Source of the DNA: a virus
Strand: one strand, 5' to 3'
Virus record (IMG/VR): IMGVR_UViG_3300046167_000585
Coordinates: 1-64,000 of that record
DNA: 64,000 nucleotides
Both the position numbers and the translations under genes were made by a program. Below are positions 17,447-39,892 of the stretch, one piece after another (within the stretch, counting starts at the first letter, position 1; every line of letters begins with the position of its first letter). Under the pieces are notes generated by a model. It made no database searches, was not told where the DNA came from, and saw only the letters and a list, made by a program, of their open reading frames with translations.

Positions 17447-17874
17447 TAGTTATCAAACTCCGTATTCGTTTGTAGAGCTTTTAATAATTCTATCTCTTGT
17501 CGTAACTTTTGTACTTCTAGTCTTCTACGTTGTAATTCTAACTGATACAGTGTGTTACAATTAATTCTTTCTTTTGGCGCATCTAACGGTATTATTATTC
17601 TAGCATAAATACCTAAGTCTTTTGTTTGTGGGTTGTTAGGGTCTTCTGTACCAAGGATAGGAGCAACTGCGTTATTTACAATACCCGTCAAGCCAAATTC
17701 AAAATTCGTTGAACCGCCAATAGAATTAGTACAGTCCAGGTCTCCTGCTTTAATTCTATCCGTACCGTGACTACTACCACCACTAGGGAGTTGTAAGTTT
17801 AGAGAAGTACTATTAGCTATTACTTGTGAACAACTCAACATCAATAATAAAAAACTTATTTGAATTTTGAGCAT
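17446..17874 (-). CDS. exported protein with C-terminal coiled coil
   Basis: This 142-residue protein begins with a clear Sec signal peptide (MLKIQISFLLLMLSCSQVIANS). The Cys at position 15 could instead act as a lipidation site. A Ser/Gly/Asn-rich beta-type middle with two cysteines follows, then a helical tail with heptad spacing (LELQRRRLEVQKLRQEIELL, residues 109-128). It overlaps the upstream gene by 19 bases and the downstream gene by one base. Being exported rather than ejected, it should reach the host periplasm or outer membrane during infection. Family unknown. Confidence 0.65.
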   Translation of the reverse strand: MLKIQISFLLLMLSCSQVIANSTSLNLQLPSGGSSHGTDRIKAGDLDCTNSIGGSTNFEFGLTGIVNNAVAPILGTEDPNNPQTKDLGIYARIIIPLDAPKERINCNTLYQLELQRRRLEVQKLRQEIELLKALQTNTEFDN

Positions 17875-18230
17875 ATTCTTGTAGCTAGCAATGTTTGACT
17901 TTCACTGCTACTCCTTAGTTTAGACAAAGAACATATATACCTTGCTCTTTTTATATTGTTTTCTGTAATGTAAACATCAAACTTAACCTCTTTTAAATAA
18001 TCAAGAGGAATAATTCGGTATGCTGTAACAAACGGAATTGGTTTCCAATCGTCAGAGAATACCCCTATTTCATAGTACCGTACATCTTCTCTTGAGTTCC
18101 AAAGCCTCATAGTTGTTTTCTTTACATCATCTACACCTGATATTTCCCACTTTGGATAGGTAGGTGTCATTTCATGACTTAGCACTGCTCCGCTCAGCAG
18201 CAATAAACATAATCCTATTGAGCCACGCAT
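17856..18230 (-). CDS. exported protein, chaperone-like beta fold possible
   Basis: This 124-residue protein has a signal peptide (MRGSIGLCLLLLSGAVLSHEM). The mature part is beta-rich (KWEISGVDDVKKTTMRLW; EVKFDVYITENN) and has a pair of cysteines (YICSLSK and RICSKFK). The pattern of an exported beta-sandwich next to a pilin-like protein recalls periplasmic usher-type chaperones, but the domain is half the usual length, so this is only a suggestion. It overlaps the upstream pilin-like gene by 16 bases and the downstream gene by 19. Confidence 0.6.
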   Translation of the reverse strand: MRGSIGLCLLLLSGAVLSHEMTPTYPKWEISGVDDVKKTTMRLWNSREDVRYYEIGVFSDDWKPIPFVTAYRIIPLDYLKEVKFDVYITENNIKRARYICSLSKLRSSSESQTLLATRICSKFK

Positions 18231-18706
18231 TCAGCTAATACTACAGCTTTATATGCACCACCTGGGAAAGCTCTGTTACCACCATACACGGCTACAGACG
18301 TACTTTGAAACCAAGCACTTCCTGCAACGCTCAGTGGATAAGAACGCATTGCACCAGTTGTAGTTGATGCTGCTTGATAACCAGACATTCCACTTTCACC
18401 ATGTGCTTTAAGAGTTACAGCACCAGTCCAAGTTACATTATCTGATAACGATGGACTTGAGCTAAAGCTAGTCGGGTAAGTTATTTGTGCATAGTAAGCG
18501 TTAGCTAACGTAGTATCAAATCTTATAACTGGTACTTGACCTGCACTAGCAGGGTCTGTTGTTAAAGTATAAGCGTTAGGGTTACCATATATTCCTGGTA
18601 CAGTAGTTGCTACAGTACATCTGCTTTCAACAGTTCCATCGATATCTGCTGCTAATATTGGAGTTGCTGCCATTATTAGACCAAATGTTATTAGTAATTT
18701 TTTCAT
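18215..18706 (-). CDS. exported pilin-like protein
   Basis: This 163-residue protein starts with a textbook signal peptide (MKKLLITFGLIMAATPILAADI). The mature protein opens with a Cys segment (DGTVESRCTVATTVPG) and ends with a second Cys (KAVVLAECVAQ). Between them it is Ser/Thr/Gly/Ala-rich with alternating beta pattern. Two cysteines, this composition and about 145 mature residues resemble fimbrial major subunits. The family assignment is by pattern only. It overlaps the upstream gene by four bases (ATGA-type coupling) and lies in a run of exported proteins, so a secreted or surface-assembled role in the infected cell is plausible. Confidence 0.65.
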   Translation of the reverse strand: MKKLLITFGLIMAATPILAADIDGTVESRCTVATTVPGIYGNPNAYTLTTDPASAGQVPVIRFDTTLANAYYAQITYPTSFSSSPSLSDNVTWTGAVTLKAHGESGMSGYQAASTTTGAMRSYPLSVAGSAWFQSTSVAVYGGNRAFPGGAYKAVVLAECVAQ

Positions 18707-19593
18707 TGGTATTGCTCCTCTATCATAGTATTCATAAGTTTATCTTGTCCTAGACTCCTTAAAGCTTTTCTATTATCCACTATATCTTTATCTTTTAAAA
18801 CAATAGATTCTCGGTATATCTTACCTGGGATAGTTGCAACATAATATGTATTAATATTTGTTGCTTGATTTATAACCTGTAATAATGCAGCTTGTGATAC
18901 TTCATTTGCAATAGTAAGTGCATTTTCTGTAGCAGCTAAAAGAGATTCCATGTTTTCTTTATCTTCTGCTTCGTCTTCGTCTTCTTTAGCTTCTTCTTCT
19001 TCTTCTAATAACTCTTTATCAGTTTCTGCTTGTGCAAGTTGAACTGATTCATCTTGTAACGCATCATAATCTGGTATATCAGGTATTGGGGGCGGTTTAG
19101 GTTTTACATACCCAGGACAGTTAGGGTCACTCTGTGGATCAAAACAAGGATCAAATCTATATATGTATCTAACATCTGCATTTTCTATACTGCCTGTGCC
19201 TTCTTGCTTAAGTCTGCCATCACCAAATACTGCGATAGGTGTATAAGGCAATGCAATTGTTCTTCTTATTTCTATACCACCTTCGCGTTGTGACCAGTCT
19301 TGTACGTCTTGAAACACATAACCACCACCTACTTTATCGTTTTCTAAAGTAACAATATAATTATCTTCTTTGTTTTTAATTGGTGTGTATTTGTAAGTAA
19401 CACCTGATATATCCATACCGCCAATACCATCAGCGCCTAAATAAATAGGTGTCATTGACCACTGTAAACCATTGATAGCTGCGTTAGGTGTGTAGCCGAA
19501 TGTGTAGCTAAAAGAAGATAAAGGCAGCAGCAGCAGTACCCATAATGCTGAGAACCTTATCACGTTTTTCTTGTGCAGTAATTTCATCTTCAT
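18703..19593 (-). CDS. exported protein with Pro/Lys- and Glu-rich middle
   Basis: This 296-residue protein has a signal peptide of the type VIRFSALWVLLLLPLSSFS, cleaved before YTFGYTPNA. The mature N-terminal 120 residues are beta-rich. A cysteine pair and proline stretch follow (PCFDPQSDPNCPGY, then KPKPPPIPDIP). Next is a very acidic segment (EEEEEAKEDEDEAEDKE, around 195-215) and a helical C-terminus. Similar exported proteins with this Cys/Pro signature occur in marine phages, to my recollection. Starts at 19593 and 19587 are both possible. Its first 86 bases lie inside the upstream gene in another frame. Confidence 0.65.
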   Translation of the reverse strand: MKMKLLHKKNVIRFSALWVLLLLPLSSFSYTFGYTPNAAINGLQWSMTPIYLGADGIGGMDISGVTYKYTPIKNKEDNYIVTLENDKVGGGYVFQDVQDWSQREGGIEIRRTIALPYTPIAVFGDGRLKQEGTGSIENADVRYIYRFDPCFDPQSDPNCPGYVKPKPPPIPDIPDYDALQDESVQLAQAETDKELLEEEEEAKEDEDEAEDKENMESLLAATENALTIANEVSQAALLQVINQATNINTYYVATIPGKIYRESIVLKDKDIVDNRKALRSLGQDKLMNTMIEEQYQ

Positions 19594-20080
19594 CCTCTGG
19601 CATAGGTATTAGGTCAGTTCTAACCTCCCATGCAGCTTTGGCTTCATTGCCTATTAAGCCATCTATTGGACAAGGAGTTCCTGCATCCATCATAGCTTGC
19701 CATACGTCTTTATCTTGGCACATTATTGATACTGCGGCTACTTTCATACCCATATCATATAATCTACCTGCTTTTTTTAATCTAAGACAATTCTCTTCAG
19801 TATAAGTAGCACCTAAACTTAAAGATAATATTTGTGTGCCTAAAGCACCACTAGAAGATATAGTACATAAATCAGAATTATTACCACCTACATTAGGTGA
19901 TATAGCTGAAGGAGGAGGAGACTTAACTGTAGTCTCATTTGTACCTGTAGTTGTTACAGTAGATGTAGTGTTCTGTGTTATTGAGCTTTCATCTACTGCC
20001 ATTACAGGTAATACAAAAATAATCCAAAAACATGCAACAATACTTAAAGCTATAACATTGTTGCGCAATCTGTTAGACAT
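19508..20080 (-). CDS. exported or membrane protein with conserved cysteine core
   Basis: This 190-residue protein has an N-terminal hydrophobic segment, probably a signal peptide (LSIVACFWIIFVLPVMAVDES), then a Thr/Ser-rich linker. A compact core with spaced cysteines follows (EENCLRLKKAGRLYDMGMKVAAVSIMCQD; GTPCPIDG). The C-terminus is short and hydrophobic (MGTAAAAFIFF). The core pattern recurs in exported proteins of other marine phages, to my recollection. It opens the exported cassette; its start shares one base with the stop of the 175-aa virion gene. Its last 86 bases also encode the signal peptide of the next gene in a different frame. Confidence 0.65.
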   Translation of the reverse strand: MSNRLRNNVIALSIVACFWIIFVLPVMAVDESSITQNTTSTVTTTGTNETTVKSPPPSAISPNVGGNNSDLCTISSSGALGTQILSLSLGATYTEENCLRLKKAGRLYDMGMKVAAVSIMCQDKDVWQAMMDAGTPCPIDGLIGNEAKAAWEVRTDLIPMPEDEDEITAQEKRDKVLSIMGTAAAAFIFF

Positions 20081-20607
20081 TAGCCTGTAGGTTTAGCGTT
20101 AGTAAACTGAGTATTTAAGTTATCTGTACCTGTACTATTAAGTACATTAACTGTACTTACAGGAGAACCTGCAACATTTGTATTAATAGTCCAGGCATCA
20201 ATTATAGTTTTAAGATATTTTTGATCAGCATTCCATTTAAAACCTTTAGCTTGTTCACCTTTTAATGTAATATCTTTGCCCATTACACTGTTAGCATTAG
20301 GAGTTTGATTTCCTGTAACGAGTGTTTGAGCAAATTCAGTTGTTTGTTTTTGAGTTAATAAAGCAACTTCTGCATTTGTTTTTTCTTGACCAATTGCATA
20401 ACTAACTGAAGCTTGTAAAGCACTTTGCATTGCTCCTAAATATACAGTAGCAAAATCTGTCCCTGTTATTCTACCTAGTTGATACTGTGCTTCTAAGTGC
20501 GCAGTAACAGATTCCATTAAATCATCAAATACACCAGTACCTGTAATTACATTATTAGTATTTGTTACTGAACTACCTTGTGTTAGTGATGCATTTGTTA
20601 GTGCCAT
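20080..20607 (-). CDS. probable virion-associated protein
   Basis: This 175-residue, mostly helical protein is rich in Thr, Ala, Gln and Asn. It has a central helical stretch (DDLMESVTAHLEAQYQLGR; GAMQSALQASVSYAIGQE) and a disordered Thr/Asn C-terminus. It lies two genes after the major capsid gene, where N4-like phages carry small virion genes. No motif defines a function. Ribosome site and short spacing (4 bases) to the upstream 205-aa gene indicate co-translation. Confidence 0.6.
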   Translation of the reverse strand: MALTNASLTQGSSVTNTNNVITGTGVFDDLMESVTAHLEAQYQLGRITGTDFATVYLGAMQSALQASVSYAIGQEKTNAEVALLTQKQTTEFAQTLVTGNQTPNANSVMGKDITLKGEQAKGFKWNADQKYLKTIIDAWTINTNVAGSPVSTVNVLNSTGTDNLNTQFTNAKPTG

Positions 20608-29527: not shown

Positions 29528-29560
29528 TTAATCTCCGTTACTTGATTTTATTGTACTCAT
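29528..29560 (-). pseudogene. fossil start of a tail-fibre gene
   Basis: A ten-codon frame (MSTIKSSNGD) begins with the same codons as the fibre gene that starts at 33119 (MSTIKSSDEH). The two loci are identical over 23 bases (29540-29562 and 33099-33121 on the plus strand) and then diverge into the ribosome site of the neighbouring 62-aa gene. I read it as the residue of a deletion or recombination at the downstream end of the fibre array. Confidence 0.55.
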
Positions 29561-29569
29561 CTATAACTC

Positions 29570-29911
29570 TTATGGTTTTGGGTACTTGTCTTTGGTTGCT
29601 TTAATAGTAGCTTTCCAACCATCTATACCATTGTGGTATATATCATCTAGCTGGTCTACAATTGAAGGATATTCTAAATCTCTATCTCTTTGATATTTTG
29701 TTGCATTTATAGATGCTATTTGTTCTGATGTTAATTCAGGTATATCCGTTATTAATGGTAAATTGTTACTGTCAAATGTTAATTTTTTTCCTTCAGGCAG
29801 CGCTTCAAAAAATGCTGATACTCTAGCATCTGTTGAAGGTATTGTGTTTGTGCCTTCTTCGTGTGCTTCAGTTTTAGTAACTGTGTCATAATATCTAATC
29901 ACGCTTTCCAT
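29570..29911 (-). CDS. tail-fibre companion protein (YPS..QLD family), copy 1
   Basis: This 113-residue protein has a beta-type N-terminus (VIRYYDTVTKTEAHEEG) and a C-terminal helical motif EYPSIVDQLDDIYHNG followed by ATKDKYPKP. The YPxxxDQLD..KxKYPK signature is widespread in small genes next to tail fibres (XkdW- and fibre-assembly-like). A paralogue lies at 33123-33473 and a diverged one at 30355-30672. It overlaps the upstream fibre gene by 13 bases. Confidence 0.65.
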   Translation of the reverse strand: MESVIRYYDTVTKTEAHEEGTNTIPSTDARVSAFFEALPEGKKLTFDSNNLPLITDIPELTSEQIASINATKYQRDRDLEYPSIVDQLDDIYHNGIDGWKATIKATKDKYPKP

Positions 29912-30345
29912 CTCCCAAAAAATACCATATGAACCATTGTTGTGTAATTTGAACCACTACTACCACTTCTTAATATCCAATCAAATGTAGTAGTAGTTAA
30001 ACTGTTACCAATTGTGTTGTCATCTAAACTTGCTGTGTAATGTCTACTTGCAGTAAAAACTGGATAAATATTAGATGTACTATGAAAAGCAATTGGAAAA
30101 GTATTTGTGTAAATAGGGTTTGTTCTAAACCATCCACCTCCAATATCAGCAAAACTTAAACTACTTTTTGTTTCTGTTATAAATTGAATAAGAGTGCCAT
30201 CCGCAAATTTAATGTATCTGCCATTAGAATTTGTAGCAGTAGTAAGAATCCCTAAATCAGGATTACTTGTATTGACATCAGCAGTAACTACTGTTCCGTC
30301 TTGTATCTTGTTGACTCCAGTTGAGCCACTAATCTCTGTTGGCAT
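29899..30345 (-). CDS. short tail-fibre protein 1
   Basis: This 148-residue protein begins MPTEISGSTGVNKIQDGTVV, the low-complexity start shared by several genes of the array. It ends in a receptor-tip-type domain (GRYIKFADGTLIQFITETK; FPIAFHSTSNIYPVF; VHMVFFGRWKA). The phrase NGRYIKFADGT recurs at 33476-34066 as NGNYFKFADGT, showing the two are paralogues. Short trimeric fibres of this kind mediate host binding. Confidence 0.7.
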   Translation of the reverse strand: MPTEISGSTGVNKIQDGTVVTADVNTSNPDLGILTTATNSNGRYIKFADGTLIQFITETKSSLSFADIGGGWFRTNPIYTNTFPIAFHSTSNIYPVFTASRHYTASLDDNTIGNSLTTTTFDWILRSGSSGSNYTTMVHMVFFGRWKA

Positions 30346-30354
30346 TACTTACTC

Positions 30355-30672
30355 CTATGGTTTAGGGTTTGCGTCTTTTACAGCTTTAATAGCTTTGTGC
30401 CACTCACCTGTTGCGTCTAACTTACCAGCAGTCATATCGTGGTACAGTTGATCTAACTGCTCCTTGACTTCTGCATAAGCTGTTGCCCTTGTTCTTTGGT
30501 ATGCGTTACCATCATAGACACCTTGAAGTCTTGTAACCTCTGCGTCTATTTGTGATTGAGTAGGTTCAGTTTGTTTACTGTCCAGCCACTCTAATTCGTC
30601 ACCTCTCAATACCCATTCAGCTCCTGGCTTTAAAGATTGAAGGGCATCGACTGTTGTCATCTCATTTGCCAT
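30355..30672 (-). CDS. tail-fibre companion protein, copy 2 (diverged)
   Basis: This 105-residue protein combines a short N-terminal domain (LKPGAEWVLRGDELEWLDSK) with the helical EVKEQLDQLYHD and AIKAVKDANPKP C-terminus of the companion family. The tyrosine-proline of the YPS motif is replaced. The N-terminal part differs from copies 1 and 3, so this one is a domain shuffle. It lies between fibres 1 and 2. Confidence 0.6.
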   Translation of the reverse strand: MANEMTTVDALQSLKPGAEWVLRGDELEWLDSKQTEPTQSQIDAEVTRLQGVYDGNAYQRTRATAYAEVKEQLDQLYHDMTAGKLDATGEWHKAIKAVKDANPKP

Positions 30673-30702
30673 TTCTTGCTCCTGTTAAAATTAAATTAAA
30701 AA

Positions 30703-31266
30703 TCATCGTACTTCTAGTAATGTAACGTGGTGATGATTTGCTTGTCCAAATAAAAGACTTCTACTTGATGGACTGCTCTGTATTTTTGCATAACACCTAA
30801 ATTCTATTTCTGATGTAGAACCTGATGTAAAGAAAAAACCAATAGCAACATTTCTATGTCTAGTATGCCCTCCAGCATCAAGTGCGCCACCTTCTTCGTG
30901 AACTGTTGTAGTTGTGCCACCCTGTATTTTGTCAATTTTTATAGCAGCTACTACAAAGTTTTGTGAATCATTGTCAACATCACCACAGACATTTAATTCA
31001 AAATCTGCAATTATTGTTGAACTAGATAGTGATGGTGTAATTGTTGGTCTAAAACTATTATCTATTTCAACATAAGAAGTTGAAGTTGTATTTGCTGCTG
31101 CTTTATATTTGACTTTTTTAGCTTGAATAACACTACCCGTAGGCATTTGTGCAGAGCCTAATGCTGGCAAACTAGCTGTTGTCATTCCCGATAGCTGATT
31201 CTGTAAGGCTATAGTGCCTGAACCATCTGCGGTTTCTAATTGGTCTACTTTAATTTTTGATGCCAT
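30703..31266 (-). CDS. short tail-fibre protein 2
   Basis: This 187-residue protein begins MASKIKVDQLETADGSGTIA, a common start of phage virion fibres. A beta-sandwich C-terminal domain follows (RPTITPSLSSSTIIADFELN). A related domain, seen as ITPSSTSSKIL, occurs in fibres 3 and 10. Its stop touches the companion region, and its start codon overlaps the stop of fibre 3. Confidence 0.7.
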   Translation of the reverse strand: MASKIKVDQLETADGSGTIALQNQLSGMTTASLPALGSAQMPTGSVIQAKKVKYKAAANTTSTSYVEIDNSFRPTITPSLSSSTIIADFELNVCGDVDNDSQNFVVAAIKIDKIQGGTTTTVHEEGGALDAGGHTRHRNVAIGFFFTSGSTSEIEFRCYAKIQSSPSSRSLLFGQANHHHVTLLEVR

Positions 31267-31748
31267 TAGCCTTGTACCTCCATTGCTATAAAACTAATCA
31301 TTCCTCTATCATTAGCTTGGTACTGAAAAGTACCCCCATTTGTTTTCATATAGGCTTGATAGGTTATTGCAGATGTAGTTGATGGGGAGTCTAAAAGACC
31401 CATTGCGTGTGGAGCAACAGTAAACCCTGTTGACCCAACTGTATAATGACTTTCTAAACCAAAACTACTATTACCTATATTTGTACTACCCCTATAAATA
31501 GTTACTTGTGCCATAGTATTTGCTTCAGGTAAATAACTTCCTCCTCCTTGAATTTGTAAAAGAATTTTTGAGGATGTTGATGAAGGCGTAATGGTTACAC
31601 TATGTCCAGTTGCAACAAATGAATTACTAGTTGTGGTAACAGTTGATGCATCCATTCGGCTTTCAACAACTTGTAATATATGACCAGCTGGCATAGCAAG
31701 TTTATAACCAGTTGGTGCTTGTATCGCTTTAACTTCTAATGTACTCAT
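31266..31748 (-). CDS. short tail-fibre protein 3
   Basis: This 160-residue protein begins MSTLEVKAIQAPTGYKLAMP, the conserved stem start. The tip domain includes ATGHSVTITPSSTSSKILL and ends YQANDRGMISFIAMEVQG, the same domain type as fibre 10. It overlaps fibre 4 by four bases (ATGA coupling). Confidence 0.7.
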   Translation of the reverse strand: MSTLEVKAIQAPTGYKLAMPAGHILQVVESRMDASTVTTTSNSFVATGHSVTITPSSTSSKILLQIQGGGSYLPEANTMAQVTIYRGSTNIGNSSFGLESHYTVGSTGFTVAPHAMGLLDSPSTTSAITYQAYMKTNGGTFQYQANDRGMISFIAMEVQG

Positions 31749-32326
31749 ACCACACTCCAGTTTCCGTTGACTGTGACTGTGTAGCCATCAGCGATTGTTA
31801 TAGGTCCAGCACTCATACCATTAGTAGTCGATCCGATTGTAATGTTTTCACTAATAGTCTGTGCATTAGTTCGTATTATACTGTCAGTACCTAATGATGG
31901 TCCACCACCTGTCATTTCAGCCCAGGTCATACCACCAGTGTTACCAGACTGTGCTGTTAATACATAACCATTAGTAGGGGCATTACTTATTTTAAGATTA
32001 GCTTCGTCTACTATGTTATCAGCAATAACAGTAGCACCATCAGCAGAAGATGTAACTTCACCACTATGATTAGGATGCACATAGTTATTTGCACTAGCTG
32101 CAACACCGTTAAGTTTAGTATGGTCAGCATCTGTGAATACATTGCTATCACTAGCTGCTTCTACAGCAGCTCTTATCTCAGCATTAGTTTGGTCAGCTGT
32201 AGCTGATGCTTCAATAGCATTTAACTTACTATGATCGGCATCAGTGAACTTATTAGAGTCACTAGCTCCTTCTACTGCTGCAGCTATATCTGATATACCA
32301 CCGCTTGTTACTTTAGTTAATGCCAT
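31745..32326 (-). CDS. short tail-fibre protein 4
   Basis: This 193-residue protein is built from a duplicated stem unit: VEGASDSNKFTDADHSKLN and VEAASDSNVFTDADHTKLN, about 40 residues apart. The tip segment MSAGPITIADGYTVTVNGNW is the same as in fibres 8 and 12. This internal repeat suggests growth of the stem by unit duplication. Confidence 0.75.
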   Translation of the reverse strand: MALTKVTSGGISDIAAAVEGASDSNKFTDADHSKLNAIEASATADQTNAEIRAAVEAASDSNVFTDADHTKLNGVAASANNYVHPNHSGEVTSSADGATVIADNIVDEANLKISNAPTNGYVLTAQSGNTGGMTWAEMTGGGPSLGTDSIIRTNAQTISENITIGSTTNGMSAGPITIADGYTVTVNGNWSVV

Positions 32327-32357
32327 TTATATCTCCTGTTAAACTGTTTTAGAGTAA

Positions 32358-33119
32358 TTAAGTAAAATATGTGCCACCTATTACTATTTGTCCATAAGCT
32401 GTAAATTCTGAAGCTTGTAATACACTAACTCCTCCAGTCACATCAAAACTATCTAGTCGAACAGATGTACCATTTTTACCTACAAATGCGTGTATTGAAG
32501 TATCAGCAGTTATTGACATATTTTCTGCATTTGACGTTGAAGCAGAAGAATGATTACCAATAGTATTAGCATTAGAAAAAGGTAAGCCTGATATGTAAAC
32601 ATTGCCTGAAACAGAACCTAAACCATTTGCTCTTACATACGCTGAAAAATGAACCACTCTGCCAATTTTTGTATAAAGACCAGCATTAAGAGAGTGCATA
32701 GTTGCATTATTAGTTAAATCAGTAAGCATAGGAGTCCAAGTTCCCTCCTCATAGTCATCCAGAGCATTGGCTGATGCTGTGTCACCGTTGAATGTTAAGC
32801 CATCTGTTGTAACACGTAATTTTTCAGTACCGTTATGTTTTAATACAATTCTATTCTGACCGTCTAAAACTAAGTTAGATGAACTACCACCGCTTGCTGT
32901 TATATAGTTATCTGAGTTTCTTGCAAATGAAATGTTATTACCGCTTGCTGCTAATGTTAAATCTGCATTAGTTCCATTAACAACTAAAGATTTAGAAGTA
33001 AACGCACCAGCACTACTTAAACTCGCTTTCTCTACTCCATTGGCTTGGAACTTTATGTCCTTAGAAGAACCATCAGCGTTTAGTGTTAGATGCTCGTCAC
33101 TTGATTTTATTGTACTCAT
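32358..33119 (-). CDS. short tail-fibre protein 5
   Basis: This 253-residue protein begins MSTIKSSDEHLTLNADGSSK, related to fibre 9 (MSTIGTNSEDLILNADGSGS) and to the fossil at 29528. The C-terminal half contains DYEEGTWTPMLTDLTNN, a motif shared with fibre 7 (SYEEGTWTPVYSGN) and typical of phage fibre tips that precede a receptor-binding beta domain. Confidence 0.75.
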   Translation of the reverse strand: MSTIKSSDEHLTLNADGSSKDIKFQANGVEKASLSSAGAFTSKSLVVNGTNADLTLAASGNNISFARNSDNYITASGGSSSNLVLDGQNRIVLKHNGTEKLRVTTDGLTFNGDTASANALDDYEEGTWTPMLTDLTNNATMHSLNAGLYTKIGRVVHFSAYVRANGLGSVSGNVYISGLPFSNANTIGNHSSASTSNAENMSITADTSIHAFVGKNGTSVRLDSFDVTGGVSVLQASEFTAYGQIVIGGTYFT

Positions 33120-33122
33120 CTT

Positions 33123-33473
33123 TTACTCCTTCGGATATTTGTCTTTAACTGCTTTAAGTGTTGCTGTCATTGTTGAGCTAAAAGCACCAGCTTTATATAA
33201 ATCATCTAACTGGTCGCCTATCGGTGGATACTCTATTATTCTATTGTTAAGAATTGCTTGAGTATCTAATGCAGCTTGTTCTTCTGTTGTTGGTGCTGGT
33301 ATTTCTGAAATAATAGGTAGGTTATCTGAATCAAATGTAAGTTGATGATTAGCTGGTAACTCTTGAAAGAAAGCTGATACTCTAGCATCAGTCATTGGTA
33401 TAGCTGTTGCTGGAACTTTGTCAGAATCTTGTTCGTGTATTTCGTTTTTTATTGCTGTGTCGTAATATCTCAT
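33123..33473 (-). CDS. tail-fibre companion protein, copy 3
   Basis: This 116-residue protein is a close paralogue of copy 1: MRYYDTAIKNEIHEQDSD, DARVSAFFQELPANHQLTF and EYPPIGDQLDDLYKAG, ending KAVKDKYPKE. I start it at the ATG at 33473 because GGAG lies 6 bases upstream; a longer in-frame TTG start (33485) has no site. It lies between fibres 5 and 6. Confidence 0.7.
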   Translation of the reverse strand: MRYYDTAIKNEIHEQDSDKVPATAIPMTDARVSAFFQELPANHQLTFDSDNLPIISEIPAPTTEEQAALDTQAILNNRIIEYPPIGDQLDDLYKAGAFSSTMTATLKAVKDKYPKE

Positions 33474-33475
33474 AA

Positions 33476-34066
33476 TTAACTCCAAACTCCTATCGCAAAT
33501 AAAACCACCCCTTGAGCATTACCTGTACTATTTACACTTAATGTCATAAATGTACAAGAACTAGTTCCAACACTTGGTGTCTTTACACTTATAGCGTTGT
33601 AATGTCCTCCTTGAGTCATACCAACAACTTTAACACTTCCAGTAAAAGCTACTGGATATGTCCAAGTGTTTGAATTACTATAATAAAATGCACCAGCAGT
33701 TGCTCCATTATTTTGTTGACTTGTTGATAAATCAACAGTACATATCATTGTTCCATCTGCAAACTTAAAATAATTTCCATTAGAATTACTTCCGCGTGCA
33801 GCAATCTCGACACCACCTGGAAGTCCAGTTAAGTTAGCACCACTAATAGCTGGTAATGTGCCTGTTATATTAGCTGCTGGAATAGCTGTTAAGTTAGCTG
33901 CTGATATGGCTGGTAAAGCACCAGTTAATTTACTAGCTGCTAAGTCATTTACATCAGCATCTACAATAGTGCCTGTTGCTATAGTGCCACTATCGACTGT
34001 ACCATCAGGCAATCCACCAACAGATAGCCCTGTGACTGTACCTGATCCGTTAATTACTATTGCCAT
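33476..34066 (-). CDS. short tail-fibre protein 6
   Basis: This 196-residue protein begins MAIVINGSGTVTGLSVGGLP, a start shared with fibre 10 (GTISGLSVGGLPDG). A pentapeptide-like stem of repeated Ala/Ile/Asn units follows (ISAANLTAIPAANITGTLPA). The tip has NGNYFKFADGTMICTVDLS and ends VVLFAIGVWS. Confidence 0.75.
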   Translation of the reverse strand: MAIVINGSGTVTGLSVGGLPDGTVDSGTIATGTIVDADVNDLAASKLTGALPAISAANLTAIPAANITGTLPAISGANLTGLPGGVEIAARGSNSNGNYFKFADGTMICTVDLSTSQQNNGATAGAFYYSNSNTWTYPVAFTGSVKVVGMTQGGHYNAISVKTPSVGTSSCTFMTLSVNSTGNAQGVVLFAIGVWS

Positions 34067-34075
34067 TCGTTACTC

Positions 34076-34351
34076 CTATAATTCGTTTGCGTCTACCATT
34101 TCTTGATAGGCTGTCTTTACTGAGTCAGTCCAAGTCGCATTAGCTACTGCCTGTACTCTAGCATCTTCACCGCTAATGTCTGTGTCTGCCCAAGAGCCAC
34201 TAGCTTTAGTGCTAGGTGCTACAACATGTCTGTGGAATGATGATGACAATACTGTGCCATCTTCCTTGACCCTTGTTGCTGTGCGTACTTGCACTTGCCC
34301 CATTTCCATTACTTCAATTTTGTCTACTACTATTTCTTTTGTTAATGCCAT
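34076..34351 (-). CDS. small fibre-array companion protein
   Basis: This 91-residue protein (MALTKEIVVDKIEVMEMGQV) combines a beta-type N-terminus with a helical C-terminus (NATWTDSVKTAYQEMVDANE). Similar small proteins accompany fibre genes in marine phages, to my recollection. It may be a chaperone or attachment factor for fibre 6 or 7. Function unproven. Confidence 0.55.
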   Translation of the reverse strand: MALTKEIVVDKIEVMEMGQVQVRTATRVKEDGTVLSSSFHRHVVAPSTKASGSWADTDISGEDARVQAVANATWTDSVKTAYQEMVDANEL

Positions 34352-34400
34352 TGCATTCTCCTGTTATTAAATGTCCGTTCTAAGAATCCACTTAGAATAA

Positions 34401-35255
34401 TTATTGGTTTGTCATATATACACAGTCAAAAGATATTTGAGCCATACTGTTCATATTTGCATCATCTCTATCTCTAATATTCATAATTGCTTCACCGTTA
34501 TTCATATACATCATATAATCTTGGTCTTGACCGTGTGACCATAACGGTGCTAAGTTATAAGCAGCATTACTGGTATAAGGTAATCCACTAACAGACCAAG
34601 AACTTCCAAAAGTACCACTTGCACCATTACAATAACCAGTAATTTTTACAATGCTTCCTATCTTTACATAGCTAAAGTTCATTTGAGTTGAAAATGCTAT
34701 ATTGCCACTATAAACTGGAGTCCAAGTGCCTTCTTCATAACTGTGTAATACTTCAGAATCTGTTGATGAGTTAGTTGCACTTGAGTCAGGATTAGCACTA
34801 AAATCAATTCCTTTACCGCTTGTGCCTAAAACTAAGTTTCCACCTGTTATAGTTACATTGCCTACATGGTCAATAATTACTTGTTTACTAGTATCATTGC
34901 GAGGCATAAAATAAAGTTTATCGGTTGAATTATTTTCACCATACAATATTGATGCTTCGCCATTTCCACCTTTAAATCTAATACCAGCAGCACCTGAAGC
35001 ATGTGTATTTTCAATTAAAAGATTAGTTGCATTGCTTCTTATTTGATTAGCGTTTCTCGCAACATTAAGCGTATGTGATAACAACCCAGTCATTGCACCA
35101 CCAGCTAAAGGTAGTTTATTAGTTACATCACTATTGACAGCAAGTGTATCTGTAGAATCAGGTAGTGTAATCGTTCTGTCTGTATTGCTACTAGGAGTAG
35201 TAACTGTAAAAGTACCAGTTCCTGTACCGTGACCTTCAATTTTTACTTTTGACAT
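34401..35255 (-). CDS. short tail-fibre protein 7
   Basis: This 284-residue protein begins MSKVKIEGHGTGTGTFTVTT, a typical phage fibre start. The middle resembles a repeated-strand stem (RNANQIRSNATNLLIENTHA). The motif SYEEGTWTPVYSGNIAFST introduces the receptor-tip domain, which ends in ISFDCVYMTNQ. This is the longest fibre of the array. Confidence 0.75.
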   Translation of the reverse strand: MSKVKIEGHGTGTGTFTVTTPSSNTDRTITLPDSTDTLAVNSDVTNKLPLAGGAMTGLLSHTLNVARNANQIRSNATNLLIENTHASGAAGIRFKGGNGEASILYGENNSTDKLYFMPRNDTSKQVIIDHVGNVTITGGNLVLGTSGKGIDFSANPDSSATNSSTDSEVLHSYEEGTWTPVYSGNIAFSTQMNFSYVKIGSIVKITGYCNGASGTFGSSWSVSGLPYTSNAAYNLAPLWSHGQDQDYMMYMNNGEAIMNIRDRDDANMNSMAQISFDCVYMTNQ

Positions 35256-35264
35256 TTATATCTC

Positions 35265-36107
35265 CTAAGCTATAACCCAGGTACTACCTGAGGGTATTGT
35301 AACACTAATCGAGCTGTTAATCGTTATAGGTCCTGCTGATAATGCGTTATTGTTATTACTAATTGTATAATCTGCTGAAATAGTATTAGCCATTTCGTAT
35401 AATCCTTTAGTTGTTGTATTAGCATCTGTATCTAATACTCCCCAGGATGCTGCAGATCCATTAGTTGTTAAATACTTGCCGTTATTACCACTTTGTGACG
35501 GTAAAGCGTCTACTGCTGCCCATGTTAGTCCTCCTGTATTTCCAGACTGAGCAGATAAAAACTGTCCATTAGTAGGTGTGTTAGATACTTTTAAATTAGC
35601 TTCATCAACTACATTATCTGCAATAGTTAGTGCAGTTGCTCCCGTTACTTCACCTGTATGTGTAGCATTTGCTGTTTTAGCTGTATTTGCAGCAATCTCT
35701 GCATTGATAGAATTAGCTAGTTTATCTGCAGTCACTGCATCGTCAACTATTTTAGCTGTTGTTACTGCATTGTCTGTAAGGTGAGTACTATTAACTGTAT
35801 CTGTAGAAGGTACTCCTATATCTACGCTTTGACCTTGATAAACTGCCCAAAATGTGTCACCACTTGCTGGTGGAGAACTAAATACTACATTAGACCCAGA
35901 TACTTTAAAACCATTTGCACCAGTATCATCTGGTTCTTGCATTACTCCATTTACACCAACTAGTAATTGTCCTGACTTAGCAGGAGTTATTGTGATCCCT
36001 CCTGATGCTAATGCAAAAGAAGTTAATGAACCATTAAAGCTACTAGATATGTCGTCTACTATCTGGTAGTTACCTACATTAGCAGGACTGTTACCTATGT
36101 ATGCCAT
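35265..36107 (-). CDS. short tail-fibre protein 8
   Basis: This 280-residue protein begins MAYIGNSPANVGNYQIVDDI, a well-known phage fibre and virion start. The stem includes TAKIVDDAVTADKLANSINA, repeated almost unchanged in fibre 12. The tip LSAGPITINSSISVTIPSG and WVIA ending match fibres 4 and 12. Confidence 0.75.
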   Translation of the reverse strand: MAYIGNSPANVGNYQIVDDISSSFNGSLTSFALASGGITITPAKSGQLLVGVNGVMQEPDDTGANGFKVSGSNVVFSSPPASGDTFWAVYQGQSVDIGVPSTDTVNSTHLTDNAVTTAKIVDDAVTADKLANSINAEIAANTAKTANATHTGEVTGATALTIADNVVDEANLKVSNTPTNGQFLSAQSGNTGGLTWAAVDALPSQSGNNGKYLTTNGSAASWGVLDTDANTTTKGLYEMANTISADYTISNNNNALSAGPITINSSISVTIPSGSTWVIA

Positions 36108-36110
36108 ATT

Positions 36111-36341
36111 TTACTCCGTTACTTTAGCTGCCTTTAATTCGTCAGTCGTAGTCATACTATCTACTTGATTTGTAATATCTCTGAGTCTTTGCTTTTCTGT
36201 GACAATAGCAGAAGTTGATGTACCAGCTTCTTGTGCTTTCATAAACAGAATGTCTTGTTCTTCTAATAAAGGTTTTCTGTCTACTCTAAGTCTATCTTTA
36301 GTTATAGCTTTAGCTTTAGTTATATCTACAGTAATAGGCAT
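36111..36341 (-). CDS. small helical companion of the fibre array
   Basis: This 76-residue, charged, helical protein (MPITVDITKAKAITKDRLRV) resembles the helical C-terminal half of fibre-assembly proteins, without the YPS signature. Its start shares a base with the stop of the 92-aa gene. Function unknown; probably acts with neighbouring fibres. Confidence 0.55.
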   Translation of the reverse strand: MPITVDITKAKAITKDRLRVDRKPLLEEQDILFMKAQEAGTSTSAIVTEKQRLRDITNQVDSMTTTDELKAAKVTE

Positions 36342-36619
36342 TATTTATTCTCCTTCATATTGTATTTAGCTAAGTCATCTGCACTTAAATCTGCTGAAGT
36401 CTTTTCATCAGAACCAGCAGTATATGTCCAAGCGTTTCTAAAAGACCTGTCAGACAAGTCAACATCGTCACCTATAATTTCGTACTTCGTTCCAGTAGGT
36501 AAATCTTTATTAGCTATGTGAATCATTTTTTCTTCATCTGTACCTGTAAGCGTTTCTAAAAATTTAGATGCTGGTACTAATACTGATGCTATTCCATCAT
36601 TGTTATATATTAATCTCAT
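36341..36619 (-). CDS. small companion of the fibre array
   Basis: This 92-residue alpha/beta protein begins MRLIYNNDGIASVLVPASKF and contains GTKYEIIGDDVDLSDRSFRN. Pairs of this gene with the 76-aa helical gene look like a split fibre-assembly protein, with the recognition domain here and the helical domain next door. The idea rests on order and size only. Confidence 0.55.
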   Translation of the reverse strand: MRLIYNNDGIASVLVPASKFLETLTGTDEEKMIHIANKDLPTGTKYEIIGDDVDLSDRSFRNAWTYTAGSDEKTSADLSADDLAKYNMKENK

Positions 36620-36631
36620 AAGTCGTATCCT

Positions 36632-37372
36632 TTAATTATCAAAAACAACAACCATAACTCTATCGTTGTCTACTTGAGTACCATTACCAGCTCGTCTAAT
36701 GTCTACTCGAATTGAATCATTATTTCCTTGCTCTTCACAAAATGCGTGTTCGTCATTGTACGAACCCGGCAACCCTAAAGTTACAAAAGAACAAGCTATT
36801 GTTGAAAGATTATTAGCGTACCTAACAAAATAATATCCAGTTCCTTGGTCTGTAATACTAGAAACATTATGACTATCATTAATAGCTACTGTGCCTGTTC
36901 CGTTCAAAACGCACCAACACTTTGCAGTAAACGCTGACAAGCCTCTGCCATCTGCTAAAACTTTAAATTTTTCACTTGATGCTTGGTTTCTTGCAGATAA
37001 TATTGCTTCACCTGAATCAGCACCAGCTTTAATCATAAGTCCTTGACCGTTATCAACATCTTCATTGTGAATTAAAGCAGCAAAGTCACCATCTACAGAA
37101 GTTTTAACGTGAAATCTATAACTTGGATTTACTCCTATTCCTACATTTTCATTTGAATCAATTGTTATAGCTGTAGCATCAGCACTAGACGAGATACCAG
37201 CTACTCCAACTCCTGTTAGATTAGCACCACTACCAGCAAAGCTAGTTGCAGTCATAACACCACCGTCACTTATACTAGCTACTTCTGTGCCATTGCTTTT
37301 AAATTTAATATCACTACCACTACCGTCAGCGTTTAGTATGAGGTCTTCTGAATTTGTTCCTATTGTACTCAT
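36632..37372 (-). CDS. short tail-fibre protein 9
   Basis: This 246-residue protein begins MSTIGTNSEDLILNADGSGS. The tip domain is a paralogue of fibre 11: GLSAFTAKCWCVLNGTGTVA and NDSHNVSSITDQGTGYYF here, against AFTAKAWVNFNGANTVS-type sequence there. The FTAKxWxxxNG signature is frequent in receptor-binding tips of phages. Confidence 0.75.
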   Translation of the reverse strand: MSTIGTNSEDLILNADGSGSDIKFKSNGTEVASISDGGVMTATSFAGSGANLTGVGVAGISSSADATAITIDSNENVGIGVNPSYRFHVKTSVDGDFAALIHNEDVDNGQGLMIKAGADSGEAILSARNQASSEKFKVLADGRGLSAFTAKCWCVLNGTGTVAINDSHNVSSITDQGTGYYFVRYANNLSTIACSFVTLGLPGSYNDEHAFCEEQGNNDSIRVDIRRAGNGTQVDNDRVMVVVFDN

Positions 37373-37998
37373 CCCGCTATCTCCATTAGTGTAATAATTG
37401 TTTCGTTCTGGCTGTCTTGAAATTTTATTGTTCCTCCACCATATTTAATTGCCCATAAAGCATATGTAGTAGCAGAAGTTGTACTTGGAGAATCTATTTT
37501 AGTTAAATTAACCCATCCTCTTTTTTCGTGCCTTTCTGAGCCACCACCTGGATAAACATAATCAGCTATAGCTACAGGTGTTTCAAAAAAAACTGTAGTT
37601 CCTCTTTTAAACATAAAACCAAGTCCAGAGTCTGTACCACCCATTTGGTCGTGTATTCTATGAATTTGTGCTGACATTAAAATTTTACTGCTTGTGCTTG
37701 AAGGTGTAATTGTTGCAGTTGCTCCGTGTGCTACCCAAGCTGAAGAAGAAGTAAAAGTGGTTTGTGTGTTATATGAAGTTTGGACAACTTGCAAAACTTT
37801 ACCAAAACTACCACTAATTTTAGAACCAGCTATTGCTGCACTTGAATTAATATCAGCATTAACTATTGTACCATCTACTATTTTACCTGCTGTAATTGCA
37901 TTGGCTGCAAGCATATCTCCGTCTACTATACCATCTGGTAAGCCACCGACTGACAAGCCTGAGATCGTGCCTGCGTCTGAATCAAATACTATTGCCAT
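37369..37998 (-). CDS. short tail-fibre protein 10
   Basis: This 209-residue protein is a mosaic. The start (GTISGLSVGGLPDGIVDG) is that of fibre 6. The tip (VAHGATATITPSSTSSKILM; DSQNETIITLMEIAG) is that of fibre 3. It overlaps fibre 9 by four bases. This is direct evidence of stem and tip exchange inside the array. Confidence 0.75.
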   Translation of the reverse strand: MAIVFDSDAGTISGLSVGGLPDGIVDGDMLAANAITAGKIVDGTIVNADINSSAAIAGSKISGSFGKVLQVVQTSYNTQTTFTSSSAWVAHGATATITPSSTSSKILMSAQIHRIHDQMGGTDSGLGFMFKRGTTVFFETPVAIADYVYPGGGSERHEKRGWVNLTKIDSPSTTSATTYALWAIKYGGGTIKFQDSQNETIITLMEIAG

Positions 37999-38001
37999 AT
38001 C

Positions 38002-38694
38002 TTAATCTCCAAATATATTTCCACAAAATTTCTGAGCATCAGTATATTGACCACCTTCCCTATGCTCTATTACAACTGAACCTACAGCAAAAGTACCAAA
38101 AGAATCTGAATAATTACCATATTGAGAATATGCTTTTGACATAGAAGTAAGAGAGTAATTAGTGTTCGCCATATTATTACTAAAATTAATTGAGTAATTT
38201 CCAGTTCCATTATCTGTAATACTACTTACATTGTGACTATCATTAATAGATACAGTATTAGCACCATTAAAGTTTACCCAAGCTTTTGCAGTAAACTGTG
38301 ACAAGCCTCTCACACCATCATCCGTAAGAGAAAGTGCTGTTGTAGTTCCCATATTAAATGAAAGTACACCACCCGCATTTCGTATAGTCCACGGGTTAGT
38401 GTGACGAGTATCATCAATAACTAAAGATACACTTGAATTATCTGATATTTCTAAACATTTATCTGAACCCATAGGTGTTACAGGTGTAGCTGTACCAATA
38501 CCTACACTTTCAGCAGAAGTAATAGTTATAGCAGTAGCATCAGCACTAGATGTAATACCAGAAGGTATATCAGAAGTCTTAGCTAATGTTCCAGAACTTG
38601 CTGGCAGAGTAAATGTTTGGTTAGTTGATCCTGAATCAGGAGCCTTAATAATGCTTGAGCCAGAAGTAGTTCCGTTTAATTTAATTGTACTCAT
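38002..38694 (-). CDS. short tail-fibre protein 11
   Basis: I start at the ATG at 38694 (MSTIKLNGTTSGSSIIKAPD), which overlaps the stop of fibre 12 in an ATGA. A longer frame upstream has no ribosome site. The 230-residue product has a TFTLPASSGTLAKTSDI segment typical of phage fibres and the FTAKAWVNFNG tip shared with fibre 9. Confidence 0.75.
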   Translation of the reverse strand: MSTIKLNGTTSGSSIIKAPDSGSTNQTFTLPASSGTLAKTSDIPSGITSSADATAITITSAESVGIGTATPVTPMGSDKCLEISDNSSVSLVIDDTRHTNPWTIRNAGGVLSFNMGTTTALSLTDDGVRGLSQFTAKAWVNFNGANTVSINDSHNVSSITDNGTGNYSINFSNNMANTNYSLTSMSKAYSQYGNYSDSFGTFAVGSVVIEHREGGQYTDAQKFCGNIFGD

Positions 38695-39278
38695 AATATA
38701 ACCCACCTTGAACCAGCCGATAGTGTAATATCTACCCCTGCGTTCATTGTTATTGGACCAGTACAAGAAGCACTTTTACCACTAGGTATAGTGTAGTCTG
38801 TTGTAATAGTCTGTGAATTTTGTACAAACACTTGGTCTGTTCCTCCACCAGTAGCACCTGAAGATACTGCAGCCCATGAGTTATCTCCTCGTAAATATGT
38901 AGTAGAACTTGCTGTACCTGTAGCACTCATCATAGCAATATCAACTGCTCCTGCTGCAATAGTAAGCGTTGTTGAACCAGTTACATCACCAGTATGAGTT
39001 GCATTACTTACTTTAGCAGTATTAGCTGTAATAGCATTTGCTTGGCTAGTAGTAATACCTACTTTAGCCGTGTTAGCTGCAATTTCTGCGTTAATTGAGT
39101 TAGCTAATTTGTCTGCTGTAACAGCATCATTTACAAGTTCTGAAGTGCCAACAGCATTTGCACCTATATCTTCTACAGTAATAACACCGTCTACAATTTT
39201 AGCCGTTGTAATGCTATTATCAGGTATATCAGAAGCAGTTACGGGAACTCTTGCTGGCTGTTTTCCTATATATGGCAT
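38691..39278 (-). CDS. short tail-fibre protein 12 (first of the array)
   Basis: I start at 39278 (MPYIGKQPARVPVTASDIPD), with AGGAA nearby and an overlap-free position after the basic-protein genes. The 195-residue product has the stem NDAVTADKLANSINAEIAAN of fibre 8 and the tip SCTGPITMNAGVDITLSAG. PYIGKQP starts are common in marine phage fibres, to my recollection. Confidence 0.75.
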   Translation of the reverse strand: MPYIGKQPARVPVTASDIPDNSITTAKIVDGVITVEDIGANAVGTSELVNDAVTADKLANSINAEIAANTAKVGITTSQANAITANTAKVSNATHTGDVTGSTTLTIAAGAVDIAMMSATGTASSTTYLRGDNSWAAVSSGATGGGTDQVFVQNSQTITTDYTIPSGKSASCTGPITMNAGVDITLSAGSRWVIL

Positions 39279-39279
39279 G

Positions 39280-39453
39280 TTATTTCCTCTTTTTTGCAGT
39301 TTTAGCTGCACGTTTAAACTGTTTAGCAGTAGGAGCGCCTTTAGCTCCTTTCTTCCTCATTCTTTCCTTAGAACCTGCTTTAATTCTCTTGCGTTTAGCA
39401 TGAATATTTGCATATAAACCACGTTTTGGCTTTCTAGTTTTTTTAGCTGCCAC
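39280..39453 (-). CDS. 57-residue very basic protein
   Basis: The start is GTG at 39453, overlapping the TAG stop of the upstream gene by one base. The product (AAKKTRKPKRGLYANIHAKR, ending AKTAKKRK) is about 40% Lys and Arg. It could bind DNA or RNA. It is one of four tiny-to-small basic proteins in a row (39280-39963), a cluster seen between fibre and tail genes. Function unknown. Confidence 0.55.
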   Translation of the reverse strand: MAAKKTRKPKRGLYANIHAKRKRIKAGSKERMRKKGAKGAPTAKQFKRAAKTAKKRK

Positions 39454-39602
39454 TATTTACCTACCTTTTTCATTGCTAATTTATGTGCCGCAGTAAAAGT
39501 TTTACCTTGGTTCATTAATTTAGTCATTTCTCGCATATGTTTAGCGGTATGGTGCACTTTATGTTTTGCCATAGCTGCTTTTTGTCGCTTAGTTAGTGCC
39601 AT
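39453..39602 (-). CDS. 49-residue basic protein
   Basis: The product MALTKRQKAAMAKHKVHHTA, ending AHKLAMKKVGK, is rich in Lys, His and Met. Near-identical small proteins occur in other phages close to structural genes, to my recollection. It overlaps both neighbours by one or three bases, so the whole basic cluster is translated together. Confidence 0.6.
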   Translation of the reverse strand: MALTKRQKAAMAKHKVHHTAKHMREMTKLMNQGKTFTAAHKLAMKKVGK

Positions 39603-39892
39603 TACTTTTTCTTTTTATGTCTAGCAGCAAATGCTCTAGCTGCTTCTTTACTTCCAAAACCCCAGGCTCTTAATGCTAGCTTTAATCTAGTCGGTCTTCC
39701 TTTAGAATCTTTTAATGGTCCAGCCATTCCTCCAAATCTAGCAGCAAAAGATACTCGTCTAGGACTTGTACCTGTTTTTAAAGGTCTTTTTAGGTTAGAT
39801 CCTTGTGCTTTTGCACTAGCTCTACCTTTTGCGTTAAGCCCACCTTTAGGATTTTTACCTTCTTTTCTTGTCCATGCTGGTGTTTTAGCCAT
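39602..39892 (-). CDS. DUF6321-type basic phage protein
   Basis: This 96-residue protein (MAKTPAWTRKEGKNPKGGLN) shows the DUF6321 pattern: KGGLNAKGRASAKAQG, then FAARFGGMAGPLKDSKGRPT and a Lys-rich tail. The family is widespread in phages with unknown function. High Lys, Arg and Gly content suggests nucleic-acid contact, perhaps in packaging. Confidence 0.75.
   Translation of the reverse strand: MAKTPAWTRKEGKNPKGGLNAKGRASAKAQGSNLKRPLKTGTSPRRVSFAARFGGMAGPLKDSKGRPTRLKLALRAWGFGSKEAARAFAARHKKKK

Follow-up and report, generated by a model that had tools for sequence, protein, structure and literature searches.

Analysis of the window, a 64,000-nucleotide stretch of viral DNA, identified twelve fibre-like open reading frames and six companions at 29570-39278, all on the minus strand with gaps of -13 to +49 nt, which are arranged as three modules, each made up of a head fibre with a B tip followed by three fibres whose starts occur in a fixed order. 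We consider it probable that these genes are a host-recognition array composed of three paralogous modules of four fibres each, with slot starts, exchangeable tips and tip-matched companions, that changes by recombinational replacement, a reading built on the observed order of the starts, tip-companion pairing, conserved joints, variable tips and differing arrays in relatives. The preliminary description of this DNA had reported an array of twelve short fibre genes with six companions, and these reading frames were confirmed; its interpretation as exchangeable parts and a storehouse for recombination is retained, but the twelve are three ordered four-fibre modules rather than equal fibres.

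Phage identity and gene content

PHROG matches to TerL (3e-88), MCP (2e-115) and a vRNAP fragment (7e-8) place the phage among the N4-like phages (Schitoviridae), and an N4-type tape measure was also matched; a portal was not identified. The phage is uncultured and oceanic, with a TerL about 60% identical to those of the nearest isolates, and the array, which occupies the tail-appendage locus, had no megablast match to isolates. Elsewhere in the window, a candidate curli-like operon at 16979-20086 was dropped for absence of Pfam support. The fibre proteins of the array are 148-284 aa long, and Pfam scans of single window fibres gave no match above cut-off. The start of fibre 11 was corrected to 38694, where its ATG overlaps the fibre 12 stop. 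The features are:

38691..39278, minus: fibre 12, head of module 1, start type PYIG, B tip, 195 aa
38002..38694, minus: fibre 11, slot MSK, tip C
37369..37998, minus: fibre 10, slot MAIV, tip A (TNF/C1q-like)
36632..37372, minus: fibre 9, slot MSTI, tip C
36341..36619, minus: companion c6, behind tip C
36111..36341, minus: companion c5, perhaps distantly related to the Phage_tail_APC type (PF16778, E 0.016, below the Pfam cut-off)
35265..36107, minus: fibre 8, head of module 2, start AYIGN, tip type B1; resembles cyanophage P-SCSP1u fibre gp28
34401..35255, minus: fibre 7, slot MSK, tip D (YEEGTWTP)
34076..34351, minus: companion c4, behind tip D
33476..34066, minus: fibre 6, slot MAIV, tip E (weak Gp53-like_C match, E 0.03)
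33123..33485, minus: companion c3, XkdW-type, whose TTG start is the homologue of the c1 ATG (phrog_9114, 7e-12; phrog_188, tail fibre assembly, 1.4e-6)
32358..33119, minus: fibre 5, slot MSTI, tip D
31745..32326, minus: fibre 4, head of module 3, start MALT, tip type B2
31266..31748, minus: fibre 3, slot MSTL, tip A
30703..31266, minus: fibre 2, slot MASK, tip A
30355..30672, minus: companion c2, XkdW-type, near-identical DNA in a T7-like phage
29899..30345, minus: fibre 1, slot MPT, tip E
29570..29911, minus: companion c1, XkdW-type, 50% identical to c3 (phrog_9114, 1e-18)
29528..29560, minus: fossil fibre start (ATGAGTACAATAAAATCAAGT..TAA), lost MSTI slot of module 3
34047..34403, minus: example of a conserved joint, comprising the fibre 7 stop codon, c4 and the first bases of fibre 6 (92.7% nt identity in locus L326)

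Shared fibre parts and a fossil start

The exchange of parts proposed in the preliminary description is borne out by blastp, which found tips shared by fibres 3 and 10 (9e-17), by fibres 4, 8 and 12 (4/8, 3e-22; 8/12, 1e-21; 4/12, 2e-6), by fibres 9 and 11 (6e-24) and by fibres 5 and 7 (8e-7), as well as starts shared by fibres 6 and 10 (8e-11) and by fibres 5 and 9 (2e-11), the latter with the fossil matching the fibre 5 start. The stem common to fibres 8 and 12 lies within the same alignment as their tips, and blastp on shuffled fibre copies gave no match at E<=1e-3. Parts beyond those previously listed are a fifth shared tip, in fibres 1 and 6 (blastp 2e-7), and the shared starts of fibres 7 and 11, and fibre 2 is a member of the 3/10 tip family (iterated profile, 1e-24). 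The best fold matches of tip A, from a model of fibre 3 (pLDDT 85), were TNF-like lectins, and PDB searches with individual fibres returned nothing meaningful for tips C, D and E. We infer that the tips bind receptors.

The fossil contains a 20-mer, ATGAGTACAATAAAATCAAG, present without mismatch at 29560-29541 and again where fibre 5 begins (0.01 matches expected in shuffles with <=3 mismatches allowed), and it is found where slot order predicts a lost fibre. A comparable fossil is present in locus L091 at 3128. Together with differing arrays in relatives, the fossil indicates loss and replacement, as would be expected if one fibre per module were in use and the others were silent spares for recombination. 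We regard such spares as quite improbable, as all 18 genes are open, tightly packed and in the same direction, purifying selection acts on c2 (dN/dS 0.04-0.29), and no clear excess of internal terminators or promoters dividing the array was found (13 terminators vs 8.5, sd 3.3, in shuffles). It is plausible that several tips, and hence several specificities, would be displayed on one virion.

Modules and slot order

The module heads are fibres 12, 8 and 4, after which the slots run either MSK, MAIV, MSTI or MSTL, MASK, MPT and then MSTI, the last being the fossil in module 3. The comparison set consisted of about 480 fetched loci, and in 76 dereplicated arrays start pairs were canonical in 139 cases and reversed in 8, compared with a mean of 73.6 and a maximum of 99 canonical pairs in 5000 shuffles. 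When the arrays that gave rise to the idea were removed, the ratio was 90:7 (shuffle maximum 68). Counts of B preceding other fibres were left out of this evidence because modules were delimited by B. B1 tips were followed by MSK 35 times and B2 tips by MSTL 8 times, with zero crossings (Fisher p 7e-9), but the B tip and the next start adjoin in the DNA, so linkage by descent could yield part of this pairing. Blocks such as MSTL-MASK-c2-MPT travel together, and the slot order could be inherited rather than required. Many fibres with these starts in other arrays carry tips outside the five families. None of the 50,697 phage records searched matched the MSTI start.

Companions are matched to tips

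Each tip family is associated with its own class of companion: D with c4, C with c6-c5, A and E with XkdW- or c5-type genes, and B with none. This pairing was predicted on the first locus set and then tested on fresh scans, where tip D directly preceded c4 in 84/91 cases and tip C preceded c6 in 34/34. In the dereplicated arrays the gene following tip C was c6 in 22/23; that following tip D was c4 in 31/38, and otherwise another fibre; tip A was followed by an XkdW-type gene (33) or c5 (6), the remainder by another fibre; and B tips were followed by a fibre in 62/62. No cross-pairing among tip families A-E occurred in these arrays. Tip D preceded c4 in 6/6 marine isolates whose upstream fibre gene is intact, and the one exception among isolates was freshwater; in isolate DSL-LC05, c4 is present but no D tip could be recognised. 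In the window, neither fibre 5 (tip D) nor fibre 11 (tip C) is immediately followed by its own companion. In 7 of 8 cases, a fibre with an integral S74 chaperone was without a companion.

The companions are most likely tip-specific folding or trimerisation chaperones, as judged by their position directly downstream and their pairing with the tip. A family profile of c5 matched PDB 2kz6 (E 8e-18); c1, c2 and c4 had no detectable homology to a solved chaperone, no structural or functional match was found for c1 (model pLDDT 76), c4 or c6, and none of the 50,697 phage records matched c6.

The tip and companion also adjoin in the DNA, so linkage by descent could yield part of their pairing. An ordinary metaviromic island, in which horizontally gained fibres pile up without order and the order and pairing are traces of a few recent block transfers, would fit the lists of tail-fibre, C1q and XkdW genes given for marine phage islands (PMC3909814), and blocks like MSTL-MASK-c2-MPT clearly move as units. 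This explanation seems unlikely to us, as the start order holds across the 76 dereplicated arrays, the pairing persists although the tips average 24-36% identity, and starts combine more freely with tips (Cramer V 0.51 for MSK/MAIV/MSTI) than tips do with companions (V 0.82, off-class pairs zero), even though start and tip share one gene.

Conservation and probable exchange of DNA

Across arrays, mean protein identity was 56-70% for starts, 68% for c4 and 72% for c6, and 26%, 24% and 36% for tips A, D and C. The DNA of starts and companions, but not that of tips, is conserved across T7-like, SU10-type and N4-like phages: the first 127 nt of fibre 5 are 92-95% identical in non-N4 contigs, and c2 is 97.5% identical to its counterpart in a T7-like phage (dN/dS 0.035). 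Blocks shared with other phages break off either where the companion begins or close to the upstream fibre's stop codon, with edges within 6 nt in 9/9 cases at c2 and reaching <=10 nt past the stop in 60/63 at c4. In one depth test the wider sharing of starts than of tips was marginal (p 0.049).

The preliminary description had proposed comparing arrays between relatives, and phages with TerL 91-99% identical to that of the window carry different arrays at the same locus. One relative joins the start of fibre 12 to the tip of fibre 4. This joined fibre and the differing arrays support exchange of parts and a recombination storehouse, and an array identical in all relatives was not found. The remark in the preliminary description that most N4-like phages have few appendage genes fits the N4-like relatives inspected, with TerL about 60-86% identical to that of the window, which have a few long fibres per locus. 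In N4-like relatives the first fibre gene begins with a start similar to that of fibre 12. Several contigs stop at the array start.

A dedicated diversification machine, either a reverse-transcriptase retroelement or DNA inversion, is favoured by the high tip diversity only and appears extremely improbable: no RVT_1 or resolvase/invertase was found in the 67.3 kb record, which lacks the genome end, although controls were detected, and long inverted repeats were absent (the best arms measured 30 nt at 70%).

Proposed mechanism

In the proposed host-recognition array, each head fibre (12, 8 and 4) would carry a conserved B-type end and be followed by three short fibres, each with a short start that would fix its place, then a stem that varies and a tip that can be exchanged (A, C, D or E). 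Each tip family would be served by its own small downstream companion, a candidate folding or trimerisation chaperone. The conserved starts and companions that flank the variable stem and tip would act as homology arms, so that recombination, the presumed exchange process, would swap the tip inside a fixed slot. Co-infecting phages, including those of different families, would exchange tips in this way, and the companion would be replaced together with the tip when the tip class changes. The short fibres may dock on the head fibre.

If this is correct, tip class, slot and chaperone could be read from sequence in the most variable genes, largely "hypothetical", of a number of ocean phage groups, unannotated companion families would be named as candidate chaperones, the movement of tips between unrelated phages without broken fibre assembly would be accounted for, and the host-range evolution of uncultured phages would become testable.

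Relation to known systems

Like the marine metaviromic islands and host recognition clusters (PMC3909814, PMC7029224), in which variable tail-fibre, C1q-like and XkdW-like genes interrupt otherwise collinear genomes, the array consists of variable fibre-type genes with flanks that are conserved in relatives. In the portions of those reports available to us, fixed slot order, modules and tip-matched companions are not described, and the host recognition clusters are in myophages, unlike this N4-like array. Small chaperone genes also lie beside the fibres of Alteromonas schitovirus A5 and V22 (PMC10579305) and of Pam3 (gp24/gp25; PMC9608196), but as single pairs rather than many pairs with several companion families; the A5 module occurs across phage families (PMC10579305) and the Pam3 fibre has a TNF-like domain (PMC9608196). 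Fibre arrays and fibre-chaperone pairs are already known, and it is the slot order and tip-companion code that appear new. The same kit in unrelated ocean viruses suggests a shared plug-in system for changing the adhesion target.

Anchor-branched receptor-binding systems (N4-like G7C gp66/gp63.1, Ackermannviridae TSP1-4, phiK64-1; PMC6872550, PMC11414711) likewise combine one anchored protein with others that have short conserved N-terminal peptides, comparable to the start types here, and variable C-termini. Those systems carry depolymerase spikes, whereas the fibres here are short, and no T4 gp10-like branching domain was matched in fibres 12, 8 or 4 (Pfam, PHROGs). We tentatively raise the possibility, which we hold to be less likely than its opposite, that the starts together with the B tips constitute a universal docking code, in which a phage-specific N-terminal anchor, a common B-type socket and ordered plugs (B1 to MSK, B2 to MSTL) would present receptor-binding heads shared across families, giving the window phage three branched fibres with up to twelve tips. 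This idea is supported by the B1-MSK and B2-MSTL pairs, which never cross, and by head fibres whose N-termini vary (27% identity) and whose B tips are conserved (52%).

Runs of short fibres are also found in the isolates P-SSP7 (a Prochlorococcus phage, gp17 and 4 others), the pelagiphages Lederberg and HTVC115P, and S-CAM8, in the same arrangement of a B-tip fibre (P-SSP7) and/or tip-A fibres with an XkdW-type companion, but with at most one module, compared with three in the window. The N-terminus of P-SSP7 gp17 is the T7 tail-fibre anchor, and its other end is a B tip.

Composition of the array

The array, all of whose genes lie on the - strand, holds twelve short fibre genes (148-284 aa) and six companion genes (76-120 aa) separated by intergenic gaps of -13 to +49 nt; the fibres (f1 to f12) keep the numbering of the preliminary description, which increases with coordinate. 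That description claimed that starts, stems and tips are shared between fibres, and the sharing proved statistically real: pairwise matches among common parts had E-values of 1e-6 to 1e-24, against 0 matches at E<=1e-3 among 360 shuffled queries. Pairwise matches and iterated profiles sorted all twelve tips into five families.

Parts of the array (c1 to c6, companions)
29570-39278, - strand: fibre array
29528-29560: fossil (remnant fibre start)
Tip A (TNF/C1q-like): f2, f3, f10
Tip B: f4, f8, f12
Tip C: f9, f11
Tip D: f5, f7
Tip E: f1, f6
Module M1: f12-f11-f10-f9-c6-c5
Module M2: f8-f7-c4-f6-c3-f5
Module M3: f4-f3-f2-c2-f1-c1-[MSTI fossil]

The stretches f1-c1-fossil and f6-c3-f5 start are diverged copies of one block, with direct repeats spaced about 3556-3559 nt.

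Slot order

A fixed order of start types was first seen in the arrays of two contigs that are not N4-like, G018 with an SU10-type MCP (PF17236) and G022 with a T7-like connector (PF12236). The order recurs in two versions, each opened by a B-tip head fibre: B head, MSK, MAIV, MSTI, or B head, MSTL, MASK, MPT, MSTI. After dereplication the comparison covered 76 arrays with 65 modules; of their start pairs, 139 were in order and 8 against, where shuffles gave a mean of 73.6 in order (sd 6.8, maximum 99 of 5000). When the arrays from which the idea arose were left out, the ratio was 90:7 (shuffle maximum 68). Labels were assigned by profiles seeded from the window, and among the fibres whose start could be labelled many bear other tips. 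The order puts MSTI last in M3, and thus the fossil stands where a fibre is predicted; a similar fossil lies behind an MPT fibre in the N4-like relative L091. No array in the set is larger than that of the window, with its twelve fibres and three B heads; the next largest have nine fibres, although many contigs are partial.

Tips and their companions

Every companion family came after a single tip family in the initial loci. This pairing was fixed as a prediction before new scans with c4, c6 and f6 queries, in which the fibre upstream of a c4 homologue bore tip D in 84 of 91 cases, several exceptions being frameshifted or wrongly chosen frames that still look D-like, and that upstream of a c6 homologue bore tip C in 34 of 34. 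Tip A is followed by an XkdW-type companion (the class of c1, c2 and c3), a c5-type companion or another fibre, never by c4 or c6 in the loci examined, and no companion followed tip B (0/107). The cultured marine phages with c4 homologues comprised pelagiphages, cyanophages and a roseophage, T7-like as well as myoviral, one record being cut. In all six whose upstream fibre gene is intact, the c4 homologue follows a D tip (E 1e-16 to 1e-21); a single freshwater phage departs from this. S74-tipped fibres bring a chaperone of their own (Pfam above cut-off), and in 7 of 8 cases no companion follows them.

The simplest reading of these gene orders is that the companions would be tip-specific chaperones. 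Independent evidence backs it in part. Both c3 and c1 give weak matches to a tail-fibre-assembly PHROG, 3 of 30 relatives hit Pfam XkdW, and the profile of the c5 family hits 2kz6; for c4 and c6 nothing of known function came up. The c1 model has a low-confidence N-terminus and returned zero matches in a structure search. Because the paired and ordered genes are neighbours, inheritance in blocks could explain part of both pairing and order, but start-tip combinations are freer than tip-companion ones, which argues against it as the whole account.

Earlier work describes fibre-chaperone pairs as well as branched multi-RBP systems and variable fibre islands (PMC10579305, PMC9608196, PMC6872550, PMC11414711, PMC3909814, PMC7029224), and no description of the slot order or the tip-companion code was found among the papers searched. 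The MSTI start and c6 had no match among 50,697 phage records. The array as first described was confirmed as an observation; its interpretation, several receptor specificities or a storehouse for recombination, is improved by the slot order and the code, and several simultaneous specificities on one virion are plausible as a putative outcome.

Exchange between arrays

In N4-like relatives at a greater distance, the place of the array is taken by a few long fibres (836 and 661 aa in L162, 386 and 1246 aa in L036, 852 and 1021 aa in L075), and in the isolates Vibrio D497 and Vibrio PG11 the genes downstream of terL are few and long. Relatives with near-identical TerL carry arrays unlike that of the window. 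L091/L019 (TerL 91%) have nine recognised fibres in a different arrangement, which opens with the f12 start fused to the f4 tip, continues with f3, f2, c2 and f1 bearing other tips and then a glycine-rich fibre, and ends with f8, a C-tipped f7, c6, c5, an S74-tipped f6, f5 and c4. L003, L005 and L009 (TerL 99, 97 and 93%) retain only the f12 start and diverge afterwards. Such differences among near-identical-TerL relatives therefore show gain, loss and tip exchange, all of which the preliminary description had proposed to look for by comparing related genomes.

The array of L003, L005 and L009, the closest relatives, is a third type: a 108-aa f12-like gene ends in repeated FPFFKADGSADNI-like motifs, and a fibre beginning MAAKIPVKAIFTGSDVTSLGEF comes next. 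Five contigs from separate metagenome records (L055-L059) all stop at the array start, 3.10-3.16 kb past terL, as if assembly broke there.

Mean identity across arrays was 56-70% for starts, 68% for c4, 72% for c6 and 35% for XkdW-type companions; for tips it was 26% (A), 24% (D), 36% (C) and 52% (B). The window and non-N4 contigs have short DNA blocks in common, namely c2 with the f1 start (88-93%), c4 (up to 93%), c5-c6 (83-90%), the first 127 nt of f5 (92-95%) and the f2 start (up to 97% over 72 nt). Their edges coincide with a companion start or the upstream fibre's stop codon: 9 of 9 c2 block edges fell within 6 nt, and 60 of 63 c4 block edges lay <=10 nt past the upstream fibre stop. For c2 alone, the window and T7-like G022 share 97.5% DNA identity (dN/dS 0.035). 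A depth profile minus query genes gave 4.4 for starts versus 1.3 for tips, only marginal by gene (p 0.049). The pattern resembles a replacement of cassettes flanked by homology arms, which would proceed via ordinary recombination; searches of the 67,309-base record found neither a reverse transcriptase nor an invertase, and no long inverted repeats were found.

Structure and possible docking

The model of f3 (tip A) is a beta sandwich (pLDDT 85) whose best structural matches are glycan-binding TNF-like lectins, and the profile of its family hits orf22, a 658-residue protein in 18 chains of 9efk, at the C-terminus. In P-SSP7, the head fibre gp17 has the T7 tail-fibre anchor (PF03906) at its N-terminus and a B tip at its C-terminus, and downstream of gp17 come tip-A fibres and a companion of XkdW type. 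The B end is therefore the distal end of a fibre anchored to the virion in that phage, which suggests that the short fibres may dock on it.

Locus setting

The window covers 64 kb of the record, and its N4-like affiliation is given by matches for TerL, MCP, tape measure and a virion-RNA-polymerase fragment, the last limited to a short stretch of the 249-aa ORF at 6950-7699 (the 2077-aa ORF at 241-6474 lay outside that scan). At 241-7699 and 13902-16976, none of the scanned proteins could be recognised as a portal. Upstream of the array lie terL and a number of small genes of tail type; after it come a small membrane-type gene (putative, provisionally labelled hol) and a DUF1353 gene. Immediately upstream, 39280-39453 and 39602-39892 encode two small proteins very rich in lysine and arginine that are kept in relatives.

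Six small genes at 16979-20086, for which a Pfam search gave nothing meaningful, match the non-N4 phage contigs L475 and L205 along 3.1 kb at about 66% DNA identity; in L475 (SU10-type) the counterpart sits immediately downstream of a fibre array. GenBank PQ898399.1 (Enterobacter phage SonariX; 248,734 bases) has an N4-type TerL scoring equal to that of the 76-kb phage SABI and is possibly a joined assembly.
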